From Mayamaea pseudoterrestris (lineage: Eukaryota > Bacillariophyta > Bacillariophyceae > Sellaphorales > Sellaphoraceae), in contig BROI01000023.1 of assembly GCA_027923505.1 (NCBI GenBank), positions 310,001-374,000 on the forward strand: a stretch of 64,000 bases of DNA. The letters are read 5' to 3'. How positions within the stretch are numbered: position 1 is the first letter of the stretch; every line of letters begins with the position of its first letter. The position numbers were made by a program, and so were the translations under genes. A model generated the notes under the pieces. The model ran no database searches. It saw only the letters and a program-made list of their open reading frames with translations, and was not told where the DNA came from. Positions 25,342 through 35,243 of the stretch are shown one piece after another.

Positions 25342-27354
25342 TCATCGTTGCCTATCTCTTCGCCGCTTACTTGCTGGAGCACCTGTACGTTTCAGCTGGG
25401 CAATGAGACGTTGCTTGCGTGCTTCTCTGCCACCTATTCCAGTACCCACTCGCTTTGAAGCCGGTTCATAAGGATTGGATGATGCACTTTTCTTGACAGC
25501 CATGCGTATCTCCATTCCAAACATTTCAAACGTATCTTGAAAGTGACGAGTCAAGTGGCGTAAGTAGCTGTCAGGCAATGTTGCCGTATTACAAAAGAGC
25601 AAGAACGTAGGTGGTCGCCCCTTGGTTTGCATGACATACTTGATGCGCGCCTCTCGGCCAGACACTCGTGGAGGAGGCACTGCTTCAAGAACGTCTGCAA
25701 GCCAGCGATTTAGTCGACCAGTAGAAATTGTTTGCTCCCAGCGTTCACGCGCACGAAATACAACGGGAACAAGATCTTGAACACATTCTCCAGTCAGCGA
25801 GCTCATTGCAACAATGGGAGTCTTCCGAAGCATTGGAAATCGCGCTTCAAGCTGATCGCGCACACCCTTTTCAAAATCAGACTTGTCATAGCCTTGCTCT
25901 AGTATGAGATCCATCTTGTTTGCGGCAACGACGAGTGATCGTCCTTCCTTTAAAACGGCATCTGCAATGGCCAACTCCTGTCGATGCAGCAACCTCGAGT
26001 CAGCGTCAATCACCAAGACTGCCACATCGGCAACCTTCATGGCGCGCATGGCATCATCCACTGCCATGTCTTCAATCTCATCTCCATGTTCTCGTCGAGA
26101 ACGTTTTCGAATACCTGCCGTGTCAACAATTTGAACTGGACGACCCTGCCACGTCCATTCAACGGCAATGGCGTCGCGCGTCAAACCAGCCATGGACCCG
26201 ACAATGACTCGCTCTTCCTGTAACATTGCATTGACAAGAGTTGACTTTCCAACATTTTGGCGGCCAAGAATGGCAAGTTGCAGTGGCTTCTCTTGATGTT
26301 GATGGTCCACTAATGCAATGGCATTGTCACTGTCCATCATGCTAGACTCCAATCGTTGTCGCTTTTGACTTGTCATTTCTTCAATAATAACTGCAATATC
26401 AACCATTCCTTCCCCGTGTTGAGCAGATATTGGTAAGGGTTCGCCAAAGCCTACTCGCGTGGCTTCATGCAAGTGATCCAAAATGGGCGAGTCGTCATCG
26501 TTCCATCTCATACCCTCCAGCTTGTTGGCCAGCAAGACCACCTTGCGATTGCTATCATTTGTATCATGATTTGCATCATGTTTGTTGCCTTGACTGTTGG
26601 AAACCTTTCGAAGCCATCGCACTGTTTCCAAAAGATCCGTCGTGACGCCGACTCTTGCGTCAAACATGAGAAACACGAGCTCGGCCTGCCTTGCCGCGGC
26701 AAGCGTTTGCTTCATCATGTCAGCAATCAGCTCTTGTGCCGCCCGCTTGTGGCTCTGCATTGTTGACAGTGAGACTGATGTTGACGACGATGATGACAAA
26801 GCCGCCATGGATACGGAAACATCCAATCGATCACCATCAACGCCAGCCGTGTCGAGCAATCGAAAGTAAGTGCCTCCAATCCGTCCAATACACTCGCGTC
26901 GATCTCTGGTTGTTCCTGGAACTTGACTCACAATGGCGCCACCAGCAGTGCTAGTGGACGTTGCCGTTCCTTGGAGTCGACCGGTTCGTCGCTTGGTCAC
27001 CTTCTTGTCGGAGGATAGTTTGTAGACCTTGTTGATTCGCTTGTCCAAGAGTCGATTGAACAGCGTGCTCTTTCCCGCGTTTGGTGGTCCCAGCAAGGCT
27101 ACTGTAATGAGTGACGGGTCTCGTTGAATGGATGATGTAGTAGCTAACGACGACGATGCGCTGCTAGAAACGTATCGTTCCACGATGCCATCGTTCCATC
27201 CTGCGGCAGCAGCAACGGACACCCAGTTGGGTGCGATGCGACGGCAGCAGCAGCTCTGACACAATTTACCCCATGATTTAGCAGCAATGGAGTTCATCAA
27301 GCATTCCGAGGAGTTGCAGTCAAATTGAGATGGAGTAAATTGAACGGCCGCCAT
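25342..27354 (-). CDS. der: Double-Era GTPase Der/EngA, ribosome assembly, organellar
   Basis: The 670-residue product has two tandem Era-like GTPase domains. Domain 1: GPPNAGKST (residues about 89-97), DTAGVDGD, ANKLEGM. Domain 2: GRQNVGKSTL, DTAGIRKRSRREHGDEIED, ANKMDLI. A C-terminal KH-like domain follows (PPRVSGREARIKYVMQTKGR, RHFQDTFEMFG). This is bacterial-type Der, needed for large ribosomal subunit maturation, so it serves plastid or mitochondrial ribosomes. The N-terminal 80 residues lack a signal peptide, which favours the mitochondrion. ATG 27354 has a good context (gaccATGG). An in-frame ATG at 27471 lies inside the tandem array and would add 39 residues made largely of repeat sequence; it is not preferred. 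Confidence 0.93.
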   Translation of the reverse strand: MAAVQFTPSQFDCNSSECLMNSIAAKSWGKLCQSCCCRRIAPNWVSVAAAAGWNDGIVERYVSSSASSSLATTSSIQRDPSLITVALLGPPNAGKSTLFNRLLDKRINKVYKLSSDKKVTKRRTGRLQGTATSTSTAGGAIVSQVPGTTRDRRECIGRIGGTYFRLLDTAGVDGDRLDVSVSMAALSSSSSTSVSLSTMQSHKRAAQELIADMMKQTLAAARQAELVFLMFDARVGVTTDLLETVRWLRKVSNSQGNKHDANHDTNDSNRKVVLLANKLEGMRWNDDDSPILDHLHEATRVGFGEPLPISAQHGEGMVDIAVIIEEMTSQKRQRLESSMMDSDNAIALVDHQHQEKPLQLAILGRQNVGKSTLVNAMLQEERVIVGSMAGLTRDAIAVEWTWQGRPVQIVDTAGIRKRSRREHGDEIEDMAVDDAMRAMKVADVAVLVIDADSRLLHRQELAIADAVLKEGRSLVVAANKMDLILEQGYDKSDFEKGVRDQLEARFPMLRKTPIVAMSSLTGECVQDLVPVVFRARERWEQTISTGRLNRWLADVLEAVPPPRVSGREARIKYVMQTKGRPPTFLLFCNTATLPDSYLRHLTRHFQDTFEMFGMEIRMAVKKSASSNPYEPASKRVGTGIGGREARKQRLIAQLKRTGAPASKRRRDRQR

Positions 27355-27388
27355 GGTCGAACGCGACAACTCGCAGCGGCATTCGGGA

Positions 27389-27656
27389 GGCAATAGTATA
27401 AAACGAGTGCCAGTGAAAACTGCGTCATAAAGGCGTAAGTAGGAAACGAGTGCCAGTGAAAACTGCGTCATAAAGACAATTGTGGGAAACGAGTGCCAGT
27501 GAAAAACGAGTCATGAGGCCTTAGTATGAAACAAATGCCAGTGAAAACTGCGTCATAAGGCAATAATATGAAATGAGTGCCAGTGAAAACTGCGTCATAA
27601 AGGCTTAAGTAGGAAACGAGTGCCAGTGAAAACTGCGTCATAAAGGCAATAGTGTG
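27389..27656 (-). repeat. Minisatellite array I, 42-43 bp period, six units, upstream of Der
   Basis: The core GAAACGAGTGCCAGTGAAAA, written on the plus strand, recurs with GTGCCAG (once ATGCCAG) at 27407, 27450, 27493, 27535, 27577 and 27620. Between cores lies a partly conserved TGCGTCATAAAGGC(A/T)... stretch. The gene-proximal edge is GGCAATAGTATAAAAC. The array starts 35 bp upstream of the Der ATG, so it probably covers its promoter or 5' UTR. Units carry ATGs on the Der-sense strand. Confidence 0.93.
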
Positions 27657-27660
27657 ACAT

Positions 27661-28095
27661 CGCTGAGCGATGCGCACTGCCTCATGTTGGGAGCAGAAAA
27701 TGAGTACGACAGCCTTACTGTTAATTTCCTGCAAAGGCTCGGCGTATGTTTTTGCTACTTTTAATGCCTTCGTTTGTCGCTTTTTGTCGCCATGATGGTT
27801 ACACAGTATGCTTGTCGACTCGAAACGTGAAGGCGCTCGTCTTCCGCCGTATCTTTGCACCAATTCTTGCCGAGCAGGCATTATGCTTAACCATTCCGGC
27901 GCACCGTGATGTTTGGAAGTGCTCACGCTCACGTTGAAACAGGTAGCGAATGGATGATGCCAATTTAATACCCATTCATTGCTTTGCGTCCCTCGAGCAA
28001 CGCAAACGCTGCAGGGCATCGCCGTCGCGAGGCAGATAGGAAAGCATCTTTGCTCCGTCGTCGTGCATTCTTGCATCAAAAGCATTCCAGATCCA
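27661..28095. other. Intergenic between array I and methyltransferase gene
   Basis: A minus-strand open frame runs across this region into the array but shows no recognisable domain and is not called. It should hold the promoter of the plus-strand methyltransferase. Confidence 0.45.
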
Positions 28096-29199
28096 ATGTT
28101 GAATAGCGTTAGCTACTGGGACGACCGCTATCGGCAGACTGCGGAGCAGTAAGTTGATTCTCGATTCTTGATGCCATGCAGGAGATTTTGTGTTTTGACG
28201 CTGCGCCTCAAGCCTCAACGACATGACTCACTCATGCACCATTGTCTCTCATACAACGTACATACCGGTAGACCTCCCTACGACTGGTATTTAGGGTACT
28301 CGAGCCTTCGTCATTTGCTCAATCCCATTCATTTCTCGGCTCTTTCCTCGGGCAAGATTTTGGATGGTGCCTTGCTCCAGCCTACTGCGCCACCGTCGCT
28401 ATTAACCTTTCCGTCGCGCGAGAATTGCCGGACGCTGATTCTGGGATGCGGCAATTCAGTGCTTGGAGAGCAGATGCAGCGCGATGGTTGGACCGGCCCG
28501 ATTGTAAACGGTAGGCGAAAAACATGCGAGAGTGTATGGCTCGACACGGCTTGCCTAACACGTTTCATTCCCAGTCGACTTTTCAAACGTTGTTATTGAA
28601 CAATTAAAGAACACTTACAATGATGCGTTCTACCTTACATTTGAGACGAACCAACGTATTCGTCCGCAGCCAATGTCGTTTGTCTGTGCAGATGTCACGG
28701 AACCATTGGAATTTGACGATGGATCGTTTGACTTGATTGTCTGCAAGGCAACGCTGGACGCAGTTCTTTGCGGACCTGGATACAAGGCGACGGCAACGCG
28801 CATGATTCAAGAAGTGGCTCGCTTGTTGGCACCCGAGCATGGAGTCTTCTTCTTGGTGACGAATGGAAAGTCGGACGATCGTATCGAATACTTGGAACAC
28901 AAGACGCGGATTGACCATTACTGGGAGAGCGTTTTTTGTCATTGTATTCCGGGCACCCGAGTGGGAGGGACACGGTGAGTGCTCAATATAAATGATTGGC
29001 ACTTGTACTGCGCTGTTTTTATTCCTGAACGCAACCAATTTGCTTGCATTGTAGAGGCCATGATTACTACGCGTATGTATGCCGTCGTCGGGCTGGTGAA
29101 AGTCCAATCGCCAATACACTGTCTGAAAATGGACCAGATTGCTTTGCAAGTTCGCTGGAAGCTGTAGACGAGGATCAAGAGAATCGAGTGGAAATGTAG
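28096..29199 (+). CDS. METTL13/EFM-like class I methyltransferase, four exons
   Basis: Exons 28096-28148, 28272-28510, 28575-28974 and 29055-29199 (introns 123, 64 and 80 nt, all GT-AG with consistent phase) give 278 residues. It begins with the family's SVSYWDDRYRQ, then PPYDWYLGYSSLR across junction 1, SAM-binding motif I TLILGCGNSVLGEQM, PIVNVDFSNVVIEQL across junction 2, SFDLIVCKATLDAVLCG, and HDYYAYVCRRR across junction 3. YWD...WY, GCGNS and TLDA are hallmarks of the METTL13/METTL12/EFM group of protein lysine methyltransferases acting on eEF1A or citrate synthase. The substrate here is not known. No membrane segment or clear leader is seen. Confidence 0.9.
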
Positions 29200-29708
29200 A
29201 AGTTGGAAAGCTTCTAGCGGCCTCATGGTCGTTTGTCAAAAGTGTGGACCTATGAGCGCCCTTTTCTCACGAGTCTCAAGACAAGAGGGTGAAATAAAAG
29301 TAATCTATAGCAAGACTGCTACTTATCTGTATCTTGTCTAATAGGTTACTGTATGACTGCATCTGCTGGTACATTCGATAATGATGGTAGCTCGAGTGAT
29401 GGGATATGAGTGTGAAACCGATACGACAAGCCTTGGCTGACGCTCATTTTTTCGAAAATTCGCCTCCACCAAAGCCATTCGTTTTCTGGCGGGATCTCGC
29501 TCGTTACAGCTAACCAATAGAGGTTATAACAGATTGAATAGCGTCTCTATGCACTGCGAAATAGTATTGTCCTCTTGAACATCGTTTGTCGAACACTGAC
29601 GAAAATTGGCCATCAATTTTCCCTCATTGGAGCTGAGCGACATTTCCCTCCGATCGCCGCACTCTTGCCTATTTTGCCTGCAACTGAAAGATAAGCAGAC
29701 TCAACGGA
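29200..29708. other. Intergenic
   Basis: About 510 bp, promoter side of the RS/polyQ gene. No gene, array or palindrome seen. Confidence 0.45.
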
Positions 29709-30067
29709 ATGGCTGAAACTGCTGATCTTTCTAATAAGAAGGATGAAGGGCTGGTAGATTCTGTTTTGATCGGAGGATTGAACCACAGTTCACCAGCGCT
29801 TTCGCAGCAACATGAGCCACTGTCGCCGACATCGCCACCTTCAAAAGAATTGGAAGACTTGATTGTTTCCGTCTATAAGAATAACGACGATGAAACCAAT
29901 TCAGAAACCATGGTATGGAAAGAAAAGATGTCCGCCGAAGACAAGCTATTGTGGGAGGAGGCGGTTGAAGCTATTGTCCATGGCGGCTTGATGGTGGCTG
30001 CGCAACGATCTTTTAACACGCTACTAGTACAAAAGCAAGCCGACGAAGAAGCTAGCAAAAGCTCTAC

Positions 30068-30108
<41 letters not shown>

Positions 30109-31421
30109 CTAAAGAGAAGAGTCTGCCTGGTCGTAACAACAACGGAAGTGGTACAGCAGGCCGAAAAGATAAACCTAAACGCGAGAATCGAAATCGTAAT
30201 AGAGAACGAGACAATTCGCGCCGATGGCCCCGAGATGCACATGATGAACATTCATATCACTCTCGCGGCCATTCGCCTTCACATTCTGGCCGATACGGAC
30301 GTCCGCCTCCGCAGTATGATTATCATTACGGACATCATCAACTACATCAGGAGCCGTCGCATCACTTCCGACACGACGGTCCACCTCCAATGAACTATCA
30401 TGATCGACAGCCGTATGACGACCGACGCAATTATGCGCATCTAGAGCACAACAGACGATACGATGACAAACACTACAATCATCGACAAAACCCTTCTCCT
30501 CCACCTTATCTTGACGAGAGATGGACAAGAGCTCGCGATGACGACCGCCATGAACGTCGGCGACGGGACGAGCCTCGTGAAACTGTGAGAGACAGACGCC
30601 GATCAAAGTCACCGGAAAGTGTACCACAGCCTGCGAATTTATCTTCCGTTGACAAGTTCCAAAAACTTGAGAAGCCATTGACAGAGTTGTTGCCAGTTAG
30701 AGGAAAGTGTCAAAGTCCTGCTCGAGCTAACAGTGTTGCTGATGACGGCGACGACCGACGACGAGGCAGTCGATATAGGCGCTCCAAGTCATCGGAGAGA
30801 AGATCAAGATCGCCTTCTGATCGGGACCACCGGCGCAGGCGTCGTCATGCTCGCCGAGAGGACGACGCATCAGAGGAAAGCTTTCAGAAAGGCAATGGCG
30901 ACCTTGGCGCCACTACCCAGCCAAACACGGAAGAGCCAGCGCAAGAAGCACCAGCTAATCATCGGAAAGCTGACGAAACGAGTAGGCACCGCAAGTCGAA
31001 ACGAAAGAAACATAAATCACGACGCGGTCGTAGCAGCAGCACTGAAAGTGACCGACGCGGCCGCCACCGCCACTCTTCGCGATCACGTCGGAGCCACAGA
31101 CACCGACGCAGCAGCAGAGACAGTAACTCTGATCAAAGCAGCAGTGAGGATTCTCGTTCTTCGCGTGGTGATCGACATCGATCACGAAGGCGTCGACATC
31201 GCAGTGATTCGTCAAGCGAAGAAGGAGACGGAGGAAGACACTCGGATCGAAAGCGTCGGCACAAGTCGTCACGTAAGAAGCGTAGGAAGGATCGTGGCAA
31301 GGAGAGCGACGGACATCGCGATATAGATTCTTCTTCTCAGGCTTCTGCTAATTATAAGGGCAACGGAAATAGTATGGCACCCACACATGATGAAGTCGTA
31401 CCGACTGGCAGCGAGTCATAG
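29709..31421 (+). CDS. Arg/Ser/His-rich low-complexity protein with polyglutamine tract
   Basis: The 570-residue product has an ordered-looking N-terminal segment (about 30-110, including SAEDKLLWEEAVEAIVHGG and QRSFNTLLVQKQADEEA). A polyglutamine tract coded by pure CAG follows, then an Arg/Asp/His/Tyr-rich middle region and a long C-terminal stretch of RS, RH and KKHKS repeats. Such RS-like tails are common in nuclear splicing or mRNP proteins, so a role in RNA processing is plausible but not shown. No RNA-recognition motif is visible. No intron seen. Confidence 0.75.
30069..30107 (+). repeat. CAG trinucleotide microsatellite
   Basis: Thirteen uninterrupted CAG codons encode the polyglutamine tract. 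The purity suggests recent expansion and likely length variation between strains. Confidence 0.95.
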
Positions 31422-31565
31422 TTTTCATCCTAAATTGAATCAAATCACTCATAGAATGACATGACTAAAAGCCACTTGAATTATAAACACAAAACAACGT
31501 TTACATTATAGTTAAGAGTGAGCTCGCGAATGATAACTATCTTCGCACCACAATGACGCGCCTTC

Positions 31566-33272
31566 CTACTTGCTTAAGTACTTTGAAGCCATCATGGACA
31601 GTCGACCATCCAACTTGAGCAAAGACGGAAATATTTCAACACGCTCCTCCAGTAAATTTTGCAAAGGCTGCAAGTGCGCCAAACTTTTAACCTTATTCGT
31701 TAGCAGCAGTGTCGACAACCAAGTGCACATGTGATCCGCTCTTCCCGGCTTCATGGCCAAGCGCGTTGTTAATGCTGCCAGCAACATGGCTGCTTGCTCA
31801 GATGACAGTGCCAGACACGACTCCTCAATCACCTGTTTGTCGCGGACGAGCAAGGCAAGCTCCAACATTGGATCGTCGCCCGACTGGAGTGCCTGCTGCA
31901 ACAATTGGCTCAATGATTCGGTTGTTGCTCGCTTTGAATCGAAAGCTGGTTTGCCGTCCTTGCCATCATTATCATAAGCTTCCTCATCGGCAGACTCATC
32001 GTCCAGTGCCTGCTGTAAAAGAGCAAGCCGTTCCGCCACGGTTGGACCGTCGTCATCGTTGTCCTCGGCACCGTTTGCGTCGACGTCCATGCCGTCGTTA
32101 TTCTCATCCAGCTTGAACTTTTTCGCAGCAATGTCTGATACACCACGAGCTTCTCCTCCCTTTTGTCCCGGGCCTAAAATGCTTGGTTGCGGCTTGCGCT
32201 TTGAGCCGGACTTGGTCGTCTCATCATTAGCAGAAGCGTCTAAATCTGATTTCCATTCCAGATCCCAATCCATTGGTGTTTTGATACTCTCGGCAATAAT
32301 TTGGTCAACAGGGCGGGTCAAAACCCGAAATTCGTTCCTATCTTGATGCTTCGTAACAGCAACGAGTTGATCCGATCCCATACAGAGTGACCAATTGTGA
32401 TCATCGGCAGGGGTGCTTATCTTGCACAAAAGCCTCAAGGAAGCTCGATCTGGGTCAATAGCATACAAGCCACGTGAATAATTAAATAAGCAGGTCGCTC
32501 CATCATCAGAATCACTATCCAACGCAATCATTTGAACAGCAGAGTGAGGCGCTGAATCTCCTTCTGGCAAGTCCATCGTTCGATTCGAACCAGTCTGCAG
32601 GTTCATCACCAGCAATCGACCGTTGGATATGGTAACTCCAATGTTTTCCGCAACTGCAAGACCCGCAAAATCACCCAAGTCTTCATACTTTTGCAGCCGA
32701 CTCCCCGTATCGCTCGCCACTAGCTTTACCGCATCATTGCTGCGGACCAAAACGGACCCAAGAGCAGGTGCCACTTGCCGACAAAGCTTGCCCACCTTGA
32801 TTTTGCGAATCAACTTTTGCGTAGTCGTGTCATACAAGTGAACTTGACACTTTTTGGACGACTCGGGCGTTTGTACGAGTAGCAGTAATTGATGTTCCTC
32901 TGAAGCCGGAGCGGCATGCACAAAGGTTTGGTTTTGTTCGGCCACCATGGAGAACGCCACGACGCCTCGCGTCACATCCCAAATCACCAACTCACGACGC
33001 GTCAACAAGCAGAGCGTCGAGTCATTGACAAAAAAGAGGGCTTGAACGTCTTGCTGCTGCGACGATGCATCTTGCTTTTGTCGGTGCGTCAGCGTCATTA
33101 ACAGATTGGAATTTTGCTGCTGCTTTCCAGTGGTCGTTTGAAGTAGCAAGACCCGAAGACTGCCTCCGTTATCAATGCTGCTTGGATCCAGCACTGCCAC
33201 GACGGACTGCGAGGACGGAGTAAGAGCGGTCCAAAGCATGCTGCTGCTAGTACTTGGAGGAGACATGACCAT
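31566..33272 (-). CDS. UTP5: UTP5/WDR43-like small-subunit processome protein
   Basis: The 568-residue product has an N-terminal WD40-like beta-propeller (about 1-330, weak repeats such as STLCLLTRRELVIWDVTRGV and QKLIRKIKVGKLCRQV). A Lys-rich linker and an acidic segment (EDNDDDGPTVAERLALLQQA) follow, then a C-terminal Utp12 domain (about 450-560: SQLLQQALQSGDDPMLELAL, LLAALTTRLAMKPGRADHMC, LEERVEIFPSLLKLDGRLSM). This order fits UTP5/WDR43 of the t-UTP (UtpA) complex, which binds the 5' external transcribed spacer in early 18S rRNA processing in the nucleolus. ATG 33272 is the first in frame and has a good context. The minisatellite array II begins about 80 bp upstream. Confidence 0.85.
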   Translation of the reverse strand: MVMSPPSTSSSMLWTALTPSSQSVVAVLDPSSIDNGGSLRVLLLQTTTGKQQQNSNLLMTLTHRQKQDASSQQQDVQALFFVNDSTLCLLTRRELVIWDVTRGVVAFSMVAEQNQTFVHAAPASEEHQLLLLVQTPESSKKCQVHLYDTTTQKLIRKIKVGKLCRQVAPALGSVLVRSNDAVKLVASDTGSRLQKYEDLGDFAGLAVAENIGVTISNGRLLVMNLQTGSNRTMDLPEGDSAPHSAVQMIALDSDSDDGATCLFNYSRGLYAIDPDRASLRLLCKISTPADDHNWSLCMGSDQLVAVTKHQDRNEFRVLTRPVDQIIAESIKTPMDWDLEWKSDLDASANDETTKSGSKRKPQPSILGPGQKGGEARGVSDIAAKKFKLDENNDGMDVDANGAEDNDDDGPTVAERLALLQQALDDESADEEAYDNDGKDGKPAFDSKRATTESLSQLLQQALQSGDDPMLELALLVRDKQVIEESCLALSSEQAAMLLAALTTRLAMKPGRADHMCTWLSTLLLTNKVKSLAHLQPLQNLLEERVEIFPSLLKLDGRLSMMASKYLSK

Positions 33273-33351
33273 GGTGGTGTTACAATGAATGAAACGAAAG
33301 ATCGAAAATAATGTTGTGCGAAATGGATGGCTCGAGGCACTGTCCTGAGCA

Positions 33352-33728
33352 GGCAATAGTATGAAACAAGTGCCAGTGAAAACGAAGCCTAAGGGGTTAT
33401 GTAAGAAACGAGTGCCAGTGAAAACGAAGCCAAAGGGTTAAGTATAAAACGGGTGCCAGTGAAAACGAAGCCAGAAGGGGTTATGTACAAAACGAGTGCC
33501 AGTGAAGCCGAAGCCGATGGATCATTGGGGTTATGTATAACATTGATTCCAATGGAAACGACTCCTAAGGCTTATGTATGAAACGGGTGCCAGTGAAAAC
33601 GAAGCCCAAGGGGTTATGTACGAAACAAGTGCCAGTGAAAACGAAGCCTAAGGGGTTATGTATGAAACGAGTGCCAGTGAAAACGAAGCCTAAAGGGGTT
33701 ATGTACGAAACGAGTGCCAGTGAAGATT
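33352..33728 (-). repeat. Minisatellite array II, 42 bp period, upstream of UTP5 and of a plastid protease-like gene
   Basis: GTGCCAG recurs on the plus strand at 33370, 33412, 33453, 33496, 33587, 33629, 33671 and 33714, with one decayed unit near 33545. Units share (A)AACGAGTGCCAGTGAAAAC with array I, but the linker is different (GAAGCCTAAGGGGTTATGTA). The UTP5-proximal edge GGCAATAGTATGAAAC matches the Der-proximal edge of array I. Its other end is about 135 bp from the ATG at 33865, so it sits in a divergent promoter. Confidence 0.94.
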
Positions 33729-33864: not shown

Positions 33865-35243
33865 ATGAGGGACTCGATGACGCTGCAAGTTCGTCTTCTG
33901 GCTTTGCTTTTTGCGATGAAGGCATTGCAAGTCAACGCCTTCCTTCCAAGTGAACGACCATCGTTTCGACAGGCTTCACTCGACCGTTCAAATACGAAAC
34001 AATTTAAAGATAAGCCTAGTATACACTGCTCGTCGGTCGTTTGTGGAATTGCTCGCCGCGATGTCATTACGACAGCAGGCAGTGGATCAGTATTCGCAGC
34101 CCTTCTCGCTTCGTCGTCTTCATCGGCACTTGCGGCTTCCATCAGGACGAACAACGGCAACAACAATCACATTCTCGTTGATTCTCCCATGGTTCGACTC
34201 AAACTTCCACAAGCAGGACTTGGTAGAGAGTATGTTGCCGTCAAGCTAACACTACAGGGCAAGGGACCCTTTGATTTCATGGTGGACACTGGCTTGACAA
34301 CGGAACTCATTACTCCACACTTACAGCAGTCTCTTGGCATTTCGAAAGGAAGAAACACGATCCAAGGTCTTGCAGCGGGCGGGCAAACTATTCAGCAACA
34401 GCTTGTCGAACTAAAGGGCGCCGCACTCTGCAGTGAATCTTGTCGCGAGTCTGATTTGCTCAGACTACCAACGTTACATGCAGTAGTTACTGACTTTCCG
34501 CAGGAACATATTGATCCACGACATGATCCAGTGGAAGGAATGCTTGGCATGGAGCTACTGAGCTTGTTTGACGTTGATTTCGACTTTCCGAACAATCGCA
34601 TTCGATTTTGTAAACCAGGAACGGCGGCGAGAGCGGCGAATGCAAAGGGTGCGAAACTTGTGGAAATACCAGCGGTACGTATCGATGCTTTATTGAGAAA
34701 GCTTACGGCATGGTACTTACAATGGTTATGTTATTGCAGGTCGTCATAAATGAAACTGGTTTGATAGGTATTCGCGTCACAATTCAAGGTGCCACGCAAC
34801 CTATTCTTGGTTTCTTGGATTGCGGATCATCCTTTTCGTGCGTCAATTGGGCGTCGGCACCCTATTTAAATATTCCACCGAAGACGGATAAACGGTACCA
34901 AAGTATAGACAAGTATATTCAAGCAGTTGGCGTTGATGGCCGCATGCTGAAACTACCACTGGTGCGCAAGCAAGTTACATTTGCTGGTAATCCAAAAGTT
35001 GATGGGGCGGGTAGGCCCACGGGTTTCGAACCACCATCATCGTCGTTCAAGCCTTGGCAAGCGGTCGACCTTGGTGTCGGCGACGTTCCAGCCTTTGCGA
35101 GCATTCTCGGCGATGGAATACATCCGTTCGATGGACCTGCAGCACTGATAGGACTCGACATTCTATCGCAGCGACGTGTGATTTTTGAAGCAGGCAGCAG
35201 TCCAAATTCGAGAGCGAGACGAGTTTATGTTAGTGCGGCGTAA
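33865..35243 (+). CDS. Plastid-targeted retropepsin-like/aspartyl-protease-fold protein
   Basis: Two exons, 33865-34674 and 34740-35243 (65-nt intron), give 437 residues. A signal peptide is followed by VNAFLPS, a clean ASAFAP motif, so plastid import is likely. A twin-arginine segment (ARRDVITTAG...ALAASI) suggests passage to the thylakoid lumen. The body has two pepsin-like half-domains: the first with VKLTLQGKGPFDFMVDTGLT (Asp-Thr-Gly) and the second with IQGATQPILGFLDCGSSFS, where the usual D[TS]G is DCG. A flap-like GMLGMELLSLFDVDFDFPNN and ALIGLDILSQRRVIFE match the conserved hydrophobic GxxxL motif of the fold. Whether it is active is open. Confidence 0.8.

Follow-up and report, generated by a model that had tools for sequence, protein, structure and literature searches.

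Promoter minisatellites, i.e. variable-number tandem repeats (VNTRs) close to gene starts, of which the human insulin VNTR is an example, are known as one array at one gene. For diatoms, excerpts of two reports describe TGACGT/C as the target of the factor bZIP11 in Phaeodactylum, with several of these motifs within ~300 bp of the start codon (PMC11142338), and aureochrome 1a as acting on TGACGT (PMC4721966). In the Pacific oyster, Helentron elements carry satellite-like arrays according to an excerpt of a further report (PMC7492417). The present analysis concerns a window of 64,000 nucleotides from the diatom Mayamaea pseudoterrestris (positions 310001-374000 of contig C23, BROI01000023.1, in a 30.6-Mb genome of 41 contigs), two tandem arrays of a 42-43-bp unit within this window, termed arrays I and II, and the genome-wide repeat family to which they belong. 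The PsbO encoded in this genome agrees with a diatom host, its best matches being the PsbO chains 8j5k, 7vd5, 6jlu, 6j3y and 8iwh from diatom photosystems, and so does the plastid-type leader, judged by eye, of the gene at 33865 of the window. In this diatom the arrays probably serve as minisatellite promoters, upstream regulatory elements with several sites each. Literature searches with two 11-mers of the repeat core returned no diatom paper by title among the matches listed, and no such family was described in the titles and abstract beginnings of the matches listed for literature on minisatellites of diatoms, repeats in promoters, bidirectional promoters and start sites. Two diatom papers among these matches (PMC6779911 and PMC7445176) each contain a single mention of a bidirectional promoter.

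Results

Array I (27389-27656 of the window, plus strand) consists of six 42-43-bp units, five of which carry CGTCA after the core, and array II (33352-33728, plus strand) of eight units and one decayed unit. An earlier note on this DNA had described a core and a gene-proximal edge common to both arrays, and the two parts of this description were borne out. Tandem Repeats Finder placed array I at 27388-27653 (period 43, 6.2 copies) and array II at 33359-33724 (period 42, 8.5 copies). Core-to-core spacings were 43, 43, 42, 42 and 43 bp in array I and 42, 41, 43, 91, 42, 42 and 43 bp in array II, the decayed unit sitting in the 91-bp step, and both arrays start with the edge GGCAATAGTAT(A/G)AAAC. 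The reported placement directly upstream of two minus-strand genes was also upheld, together with the identities of these genes. Array I starts 34 bp upstream of the ATG at 27354 of a gene for the GTPase Der (EngA; 25342-27354), whose product scores 370 bits with TIGR03594 against a cut-off of 306.7; an alternative in-frame ATG at 27471 falls inside the array. Array II starts ~80 bp upstream of the ATG at 33272 of a UTP5-like gene (31566-33272) with a Utp12 domain, whose product matches solved Utp5 chains (E 3e-9) in its C-terminal part only.

Both arrays belong to a repeat family that is real, large and promoter-associated. The 15-mer GAGTGCCAGTGAAAA had 454 exact matches in the genome (252 on the plus and 202 on the minus strand) and its reversed control none, indicating that the arrays are not due to chance. 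The family is thus dispersed genome-wide, which supports the earlier note in so far as it proposed a spreading repeat. A 28-bp unit pattern, GAAACNAGTGCCAGTGNNAANTNCGTCA, had 632 matches (341 and 291 by strand; reversed control, 0) and the variant AACGAGTGCCAGTGTCAATTACGTCA had 207. Arrays occupied at least 141 places, duplicated loci included. The 49 arrays that were delimited contained 328 units, with a median of seven and a range of 3-12 units per array, as in a dispersed minisatellite. Their distribution was uneven: on contigs C1-C6, 24 of 46 arrays lay within 30 kb of another as compared to 9.9 expected, a number reached in none of 5000 simulations, and none of the matches listed fell within the initial 2.24 Mb of C1 (P = 2e-4). 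Contig C7 likewise held no unit among the matches listed for the five patterns reaching that contig. A long and very uniform array was seen at C9:37778-38736, with 23 exact matches to the unit form TCAATTACGTCA in a row at 42-43 bp. One 21-base unit pattern had no matches in viral contigs.

The unit was characterized from 42 arrays and 291 units, for which the duplicate loci L042 and L048 were left out and L039 was kept. The period described for the two arrays was strict across the family, the step being 42 bp in 202 of 249 spacings, 43 bp in 32 and 41 bp in six. The consensus is GGCAATAGTACGAAACGAGTGCCAGTGAAAACTACGTCATAA, with conserved modules that include GAAAC, TGCCAGTG and CGTCA; a typical 42-bp unit comprises the three modules GGCAATA, GAAAC-gAGTGCCAGTG and CGTCA. 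Columns 13-16, 20-27, 30-31 and 35-39 were strongly conserved whilst columns 8, 11, 28, 29, 32, 34, 40 and 41 were variable: no array had any change at columns 20 and 27 as compared to 39 of 42 arrays at columns 11 and 40. The variance of per-column change was 134, against a maximum of 15.7 in 2000 permutations. As equal rates within one unit genealogy would give even variation, the uneven columns may be read as selection on the modules, although the cause could also be a copying machinery dependent on the core. A conserved core with a free linker had been proposed; the core was indeed far more conserved than the other columns, but a free linker was not supported, its GGCAATA module being retained genome-wide. 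Two unit forms, GTGAAAA (218/328) and GTGTCAA (107/328, with three units tied), were intermixed within arrays. Of the 328 units, 264 had CGTCA after the core, and 48 of the 49 arrays had at least one such unit. In reverse, this pentamer reads TGACG, a diatom bZIP half-site, and the bZIP motifs of CO2/cAMP- and cAMP-responsive elements (CCRE/CRE), TGACGT or TGACGC, were present in 260 of 328 units. Array II was the sole array among the 49 without any CGTCA (0/8 units); in its inner units, CGAAGCC plus GGGGTTAT-like letters replace CGTCA plus GGCAATA. Array II is a locally homogenised variant, and its odd linker is not typical of the family. Two other interpretations of the unit were rejected. 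A coding repeat did not fit as, by eye, the frame starting ATGACG is stopped by its third codon in the ACGTCA units (about half), and a CRISPR-like array did not fit a diatom chromosome and a linker that is conserved as well.

Array edges were compared for the 49 arrays, near-identical duplicate loci being excluded and one mismatch and a one-base shift being tolerated. On the right, CGTCA followed the last core in 39 arrays and the next GGCAATA in only four. On the left, the first core was preceded by GAAAC in 47 arrays, by GGCAATA in 33 and by an additional upstream CGTCA in 23. The chance rates at equal tolerance were 0.058 for CGTCA, 0.005 for GGCAATA and 0.056 for GAAAC, and identity dropped to background beyond the edge modules. 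Array starts and ends thus fall mostly at module borders. Comparison of the 98 flanks produced matches solely among L026, L031 and L056, where the match is to the partner inverted array, and for one L047 stretch counted twice. The longest end-to-end flank matches were of 0-10 bases (without a shuffled control), the long ones being the array's own CGTCA or GGCAATA. A Helitron, Helentron or other transposon was rejected, as neither conserved termini or flanks nor a target-site duplication was found in the 98 flanks. At L026, L031 and L056, two oppositely oriented arrays meet in one gap and form a large inverted repeat.

Neighbouring genes were analysed for 42 of the at least 141 places: both arrays of the window, 20 places on C1-C3, every one of the 18 listed for C4-C6 and two on C9, with eight further listed places on C1-C3 lying outside this sample. 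Coding segments were defined by codon log-odds and strands were checked with Pfam. By array, 28 were divergent, nine tandem, none convergent and four unclassified. By gap, counted by hand with the paired arrays at L031 and L026 merged, 27 of 35 were divergent, eight tandem and none convergent; this count omits the duplicates L039, L042 and L048, the unclassified L017, L034, L035 and second L047 array, and L023. Background gaps without arrays (n = 89) comprised 25 divergent, 26 tandem and 38 convergent gaps. The deficit of convergent gaps was highly significant (0/35 versus 38/89, P = 2e-7); this background takes in gaps beside arrays, which biases it towards convergent, and a window-only background agreed (0/35 versus 9/25, P = 1.4e-4). 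Divergent gaps were correspondingly in excess (27/35 versus 25/89, P = 8e-7). The earlier note had named a genome-wide placement of arrays independent of gene starts as a refutation of its reading, and this was not the pattern observed. Each divergent gap contains two promoters, so that 66% of array gaps should be divergent if arrays merely follow promoters. The observed 27/35 (77%) did not differ from this expectation (P = 0.21), so a preference for divergent gaps per se was rejected after correction for promoter number, indicating that arrays are tied to gene starts and leaving two-way promoters unproven. The arrays follow gene starts, as would the location of a promoter element.

The nearest in-frame ATG was at a median of 135 bp for the 28 divergent arrays, and in five of eight tandem gaps (L015, L022, L024, L028 and L043) no more than 125 bp separated the array from the start of the downstream gene. 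Both divergent flanking proteins had Pfam hits at seven loci (array II of the window, L012, L013, L027, L030, L032 and L037). Some gaps are largely taken up by the array; at L021, a 210-bp array leaves 48 bp on one side and 60 bp on the other. The same orientation relative to the gene, as noted for arrays I and II, was not a property of the family: orientation with respect to the nearer gene was random (14/25, P = 0.69) and a fixed orientation was rejected. A single intact unit amid decayed-looking ones was observed between divergent genes at L023:4987-5028.

The proposed link of the arrays to ribosome biogenesis was examined by scanning neighbour proteins at E 0.001 and controls (40 genes out of 62 found) at 1e-5, all counted ribosome and RNA hits passing 1e-5. 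Ribosome-related proteins were encoded by four of 60 neighbours (Der, UTP5-like, bL19 and uL1) and none of 40 controls, a non-significant difference at low power (Fisher P = 0.15). RNA-related genes, by our own sorting, numbered 10/60 and 4/40, respectively (P = 0.39). Other neighbours encoded tubulin, guanylate kinase, aconitase, ATG13, Snf7, light-harvesting proteins and FTHFS, with many assigned to no family. Array neighbours are mixed housekeeping genes, and a ribosome-biogenesis regulon is not supported.

Several array loci are duplicated. L041 and L042 were 99.9% identical, and L047 and L048 were identical across 2120 bp. Among five further pairs chosen for their equal layout, L053/L054 and L055/L056 proved not to be duplicates; the other three were (L051/L052, 99.7%; L057/L058, with full identity across 735 of 1000 bp; L059/L060, 97%). 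The aconitase B loci, L038 and L039, were 94% identical, with array units shuffled between them. The second refutation named in the earlier note was linkers conserved as strongly as cores between strains, and the two diverged duplicate pairs differed on this point. Linkers had changed faster than the core at L038/L039 (core 7/198, linkers 29/180, flanks 39/900), for which unit shuffling alone can account, whilst L059/L060 exhibited no clear core effect (core 2/176, linkers 4/160, flanks 26/615). On C9, a 10.09-kb tandem duplication (~782.0 to 802.2 kb) has one breakpoint at an array edge (L050:829 = L047:2119), which implicates an array in at least one rearrangement. In one copy, this duplication cuts a gene whose HMA match is below threshold.

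Within the window, a plus-strand gene on which the earlier note is silent lies ~130 bp to the right of array II and encodes an aspartyl-protease-like protein (33865-34749) with a plastid-type leader, judged by eye. Array II therefore stands between divergent genes, with this gene as the partner of the UTP5-like gene. A weak plus-strand coding segment (28577-28936, by codon score) ~0.9 kb to the right of array I is a candidate divergent partner of Der. No tRNA or Rfam matches were found in the window. A run of 13 CAG triplets at 30069-30107 encodes glutamines in an arginine/serine-rich protein.

Discussion

A functional role for the arrays is likely, as judged from their sequence and location, and a role as multi-site upstream regulatory elements is probable. 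A bZIP factor would bind at the CGTCA of each unit and a second factor at GAAAC-AGTGCCAGTG; the genome has 19 bZIP_1 matches, 14 of which are above the Pfam cut-off. The step of four helical turns would set the bound proteins on one face of the helix, and the array could drive one or both flanking genes, whatever its own orientation. Recombination would expand and shuffle the units, and arrays may be copied between promoters without their flanks.

Several observations weigh against a promoter role. The gene models are codon-score segments rather than annotation, and the samples disagree, with 13 divergent and seven tandem gaps in the window plus C1-C3 (13/20 divergent) but 13 and one on C4-C6 (13/14; C9 added one divergent and no tandem gap). 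The arrays in the tandem gaps L009 and L014 lie 399 and 1542 bp, respectively, from the nearest start, and for the tandem gap L026 no start was found. With none of its eight units carrying CGTCA, array II indicates that the bZIP site cannot be required everywhere. The array-free first 2.24 Mb of C1 and the clustering elsewhere indicate that many promoters manage without an array. Finally, the divergent share also fits a promoter-seeking insertion of a neutral repeat.

This last point leads to the most serious rival, a neutral dispersed minisatellite entering open chromatin at promoters, where nucleosome-free starts accept copies; the conserved core would then reflect young copies or recognition by the copying machinery. 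Such an account, which we consider possible but clearly less probable than a promoter role, is compatible with a divergent share that follows promoter number and with random orientation, with the shuffling of units between duplicate loci and with the strong regional clustering. It does not readily explain the column-specific conservation, in which two columns unchanged in all 42 arrays stand beside columns varying in 39, nor why edges should fall mostly at module borders, nor flanks that are not shared and whose end matches, assessed without a shuffled control, are short or consist of the array's own modules. A second rival is a mobile cassette, in which a 37-bp body flanked by CGTCA inserts at CGTCA and, by insertion into its own target, generates n bodies and n+1 pentamers. 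The far-left pentamer in 23 of 49 arrays, the far-right pentamer in 39 of 49 and the absence of anything common to the flanks of different loci favour this model, but the left pentamer is absent in 26 of 49 arrays and TGACG is equally sensible as a binding site. We are not aware of a eukaryotic element comparable in size and mechanism, although no search aimed at one was made, and we regard the cassette as decidedly unlikely.

Two further explanations are less probable still. A phased promoter specific to ribosome-biogenesis genes was suggested by Der and the UTP5-like gene, and the bL19 and uL1 genes also adjoin arrays; set against the mixed neighbours and the lack of a significant difference from controls, such specificity is very improbable. 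That the arrays serve as a source of small or structured RNA is scarcely credible: the inverted array pairs in three gaps could favour it, but no Rfam match was found in the window and folding of array II, the one array folded, gave nothing consistent (z -1.6 and +3.7 for the two strands).

Should the arrays be promoters, as we favour, many unrelated genes would have received regulatory sequence from a single repeat family, in which loci differ naturally in copy number, spacing and module content. This natural variation would make questions of helical phasing and site number testable in a diatom, and the arrays would offer compact, possibly two-way promoters for diatom work. A bolder extension, advanced tentatively and in our view rather doubtful, is a self-spreading promoter cassette: a 42-bp multi-module unit copied flank-free into well over 100 unrelated promoters, so that as many as a few hundred genes would come under one factor pair and array length would serve for tuning. 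The minisatellite would then be a genome-wide regulatory network in the making.

Among known systems, the arrays resemble bidirectional promoters in that 27 of 35 classified gaps are head-to-head, and differ in that this share is not above the expectation from promoter number. With the Helentron-carried arrays of the oyster, as far as these are described in the excerpt, they have in common short arrays of one family dispersed in the genome, whereas no flank is conserved past the array between loci (near-identical duplicates excluded). Like the CO2/cAMP-responsive elements targeted by bZIP11, most units contain TGACGT or TGACGC in reverse; those elements are placed by the excerpt at carbon-concentrating genes, whereas the motif here lies within a 42-bp unit with two further modules and adjoins mixed genes. 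Promoter VNTRs are similar in having tandem units at a gene start that are able to carry factor sites and to change in copy number. The diatom arrays differ from these in that one unit family, with a 42-bp step and module-defined ends, is present at many unrelated gene starts.

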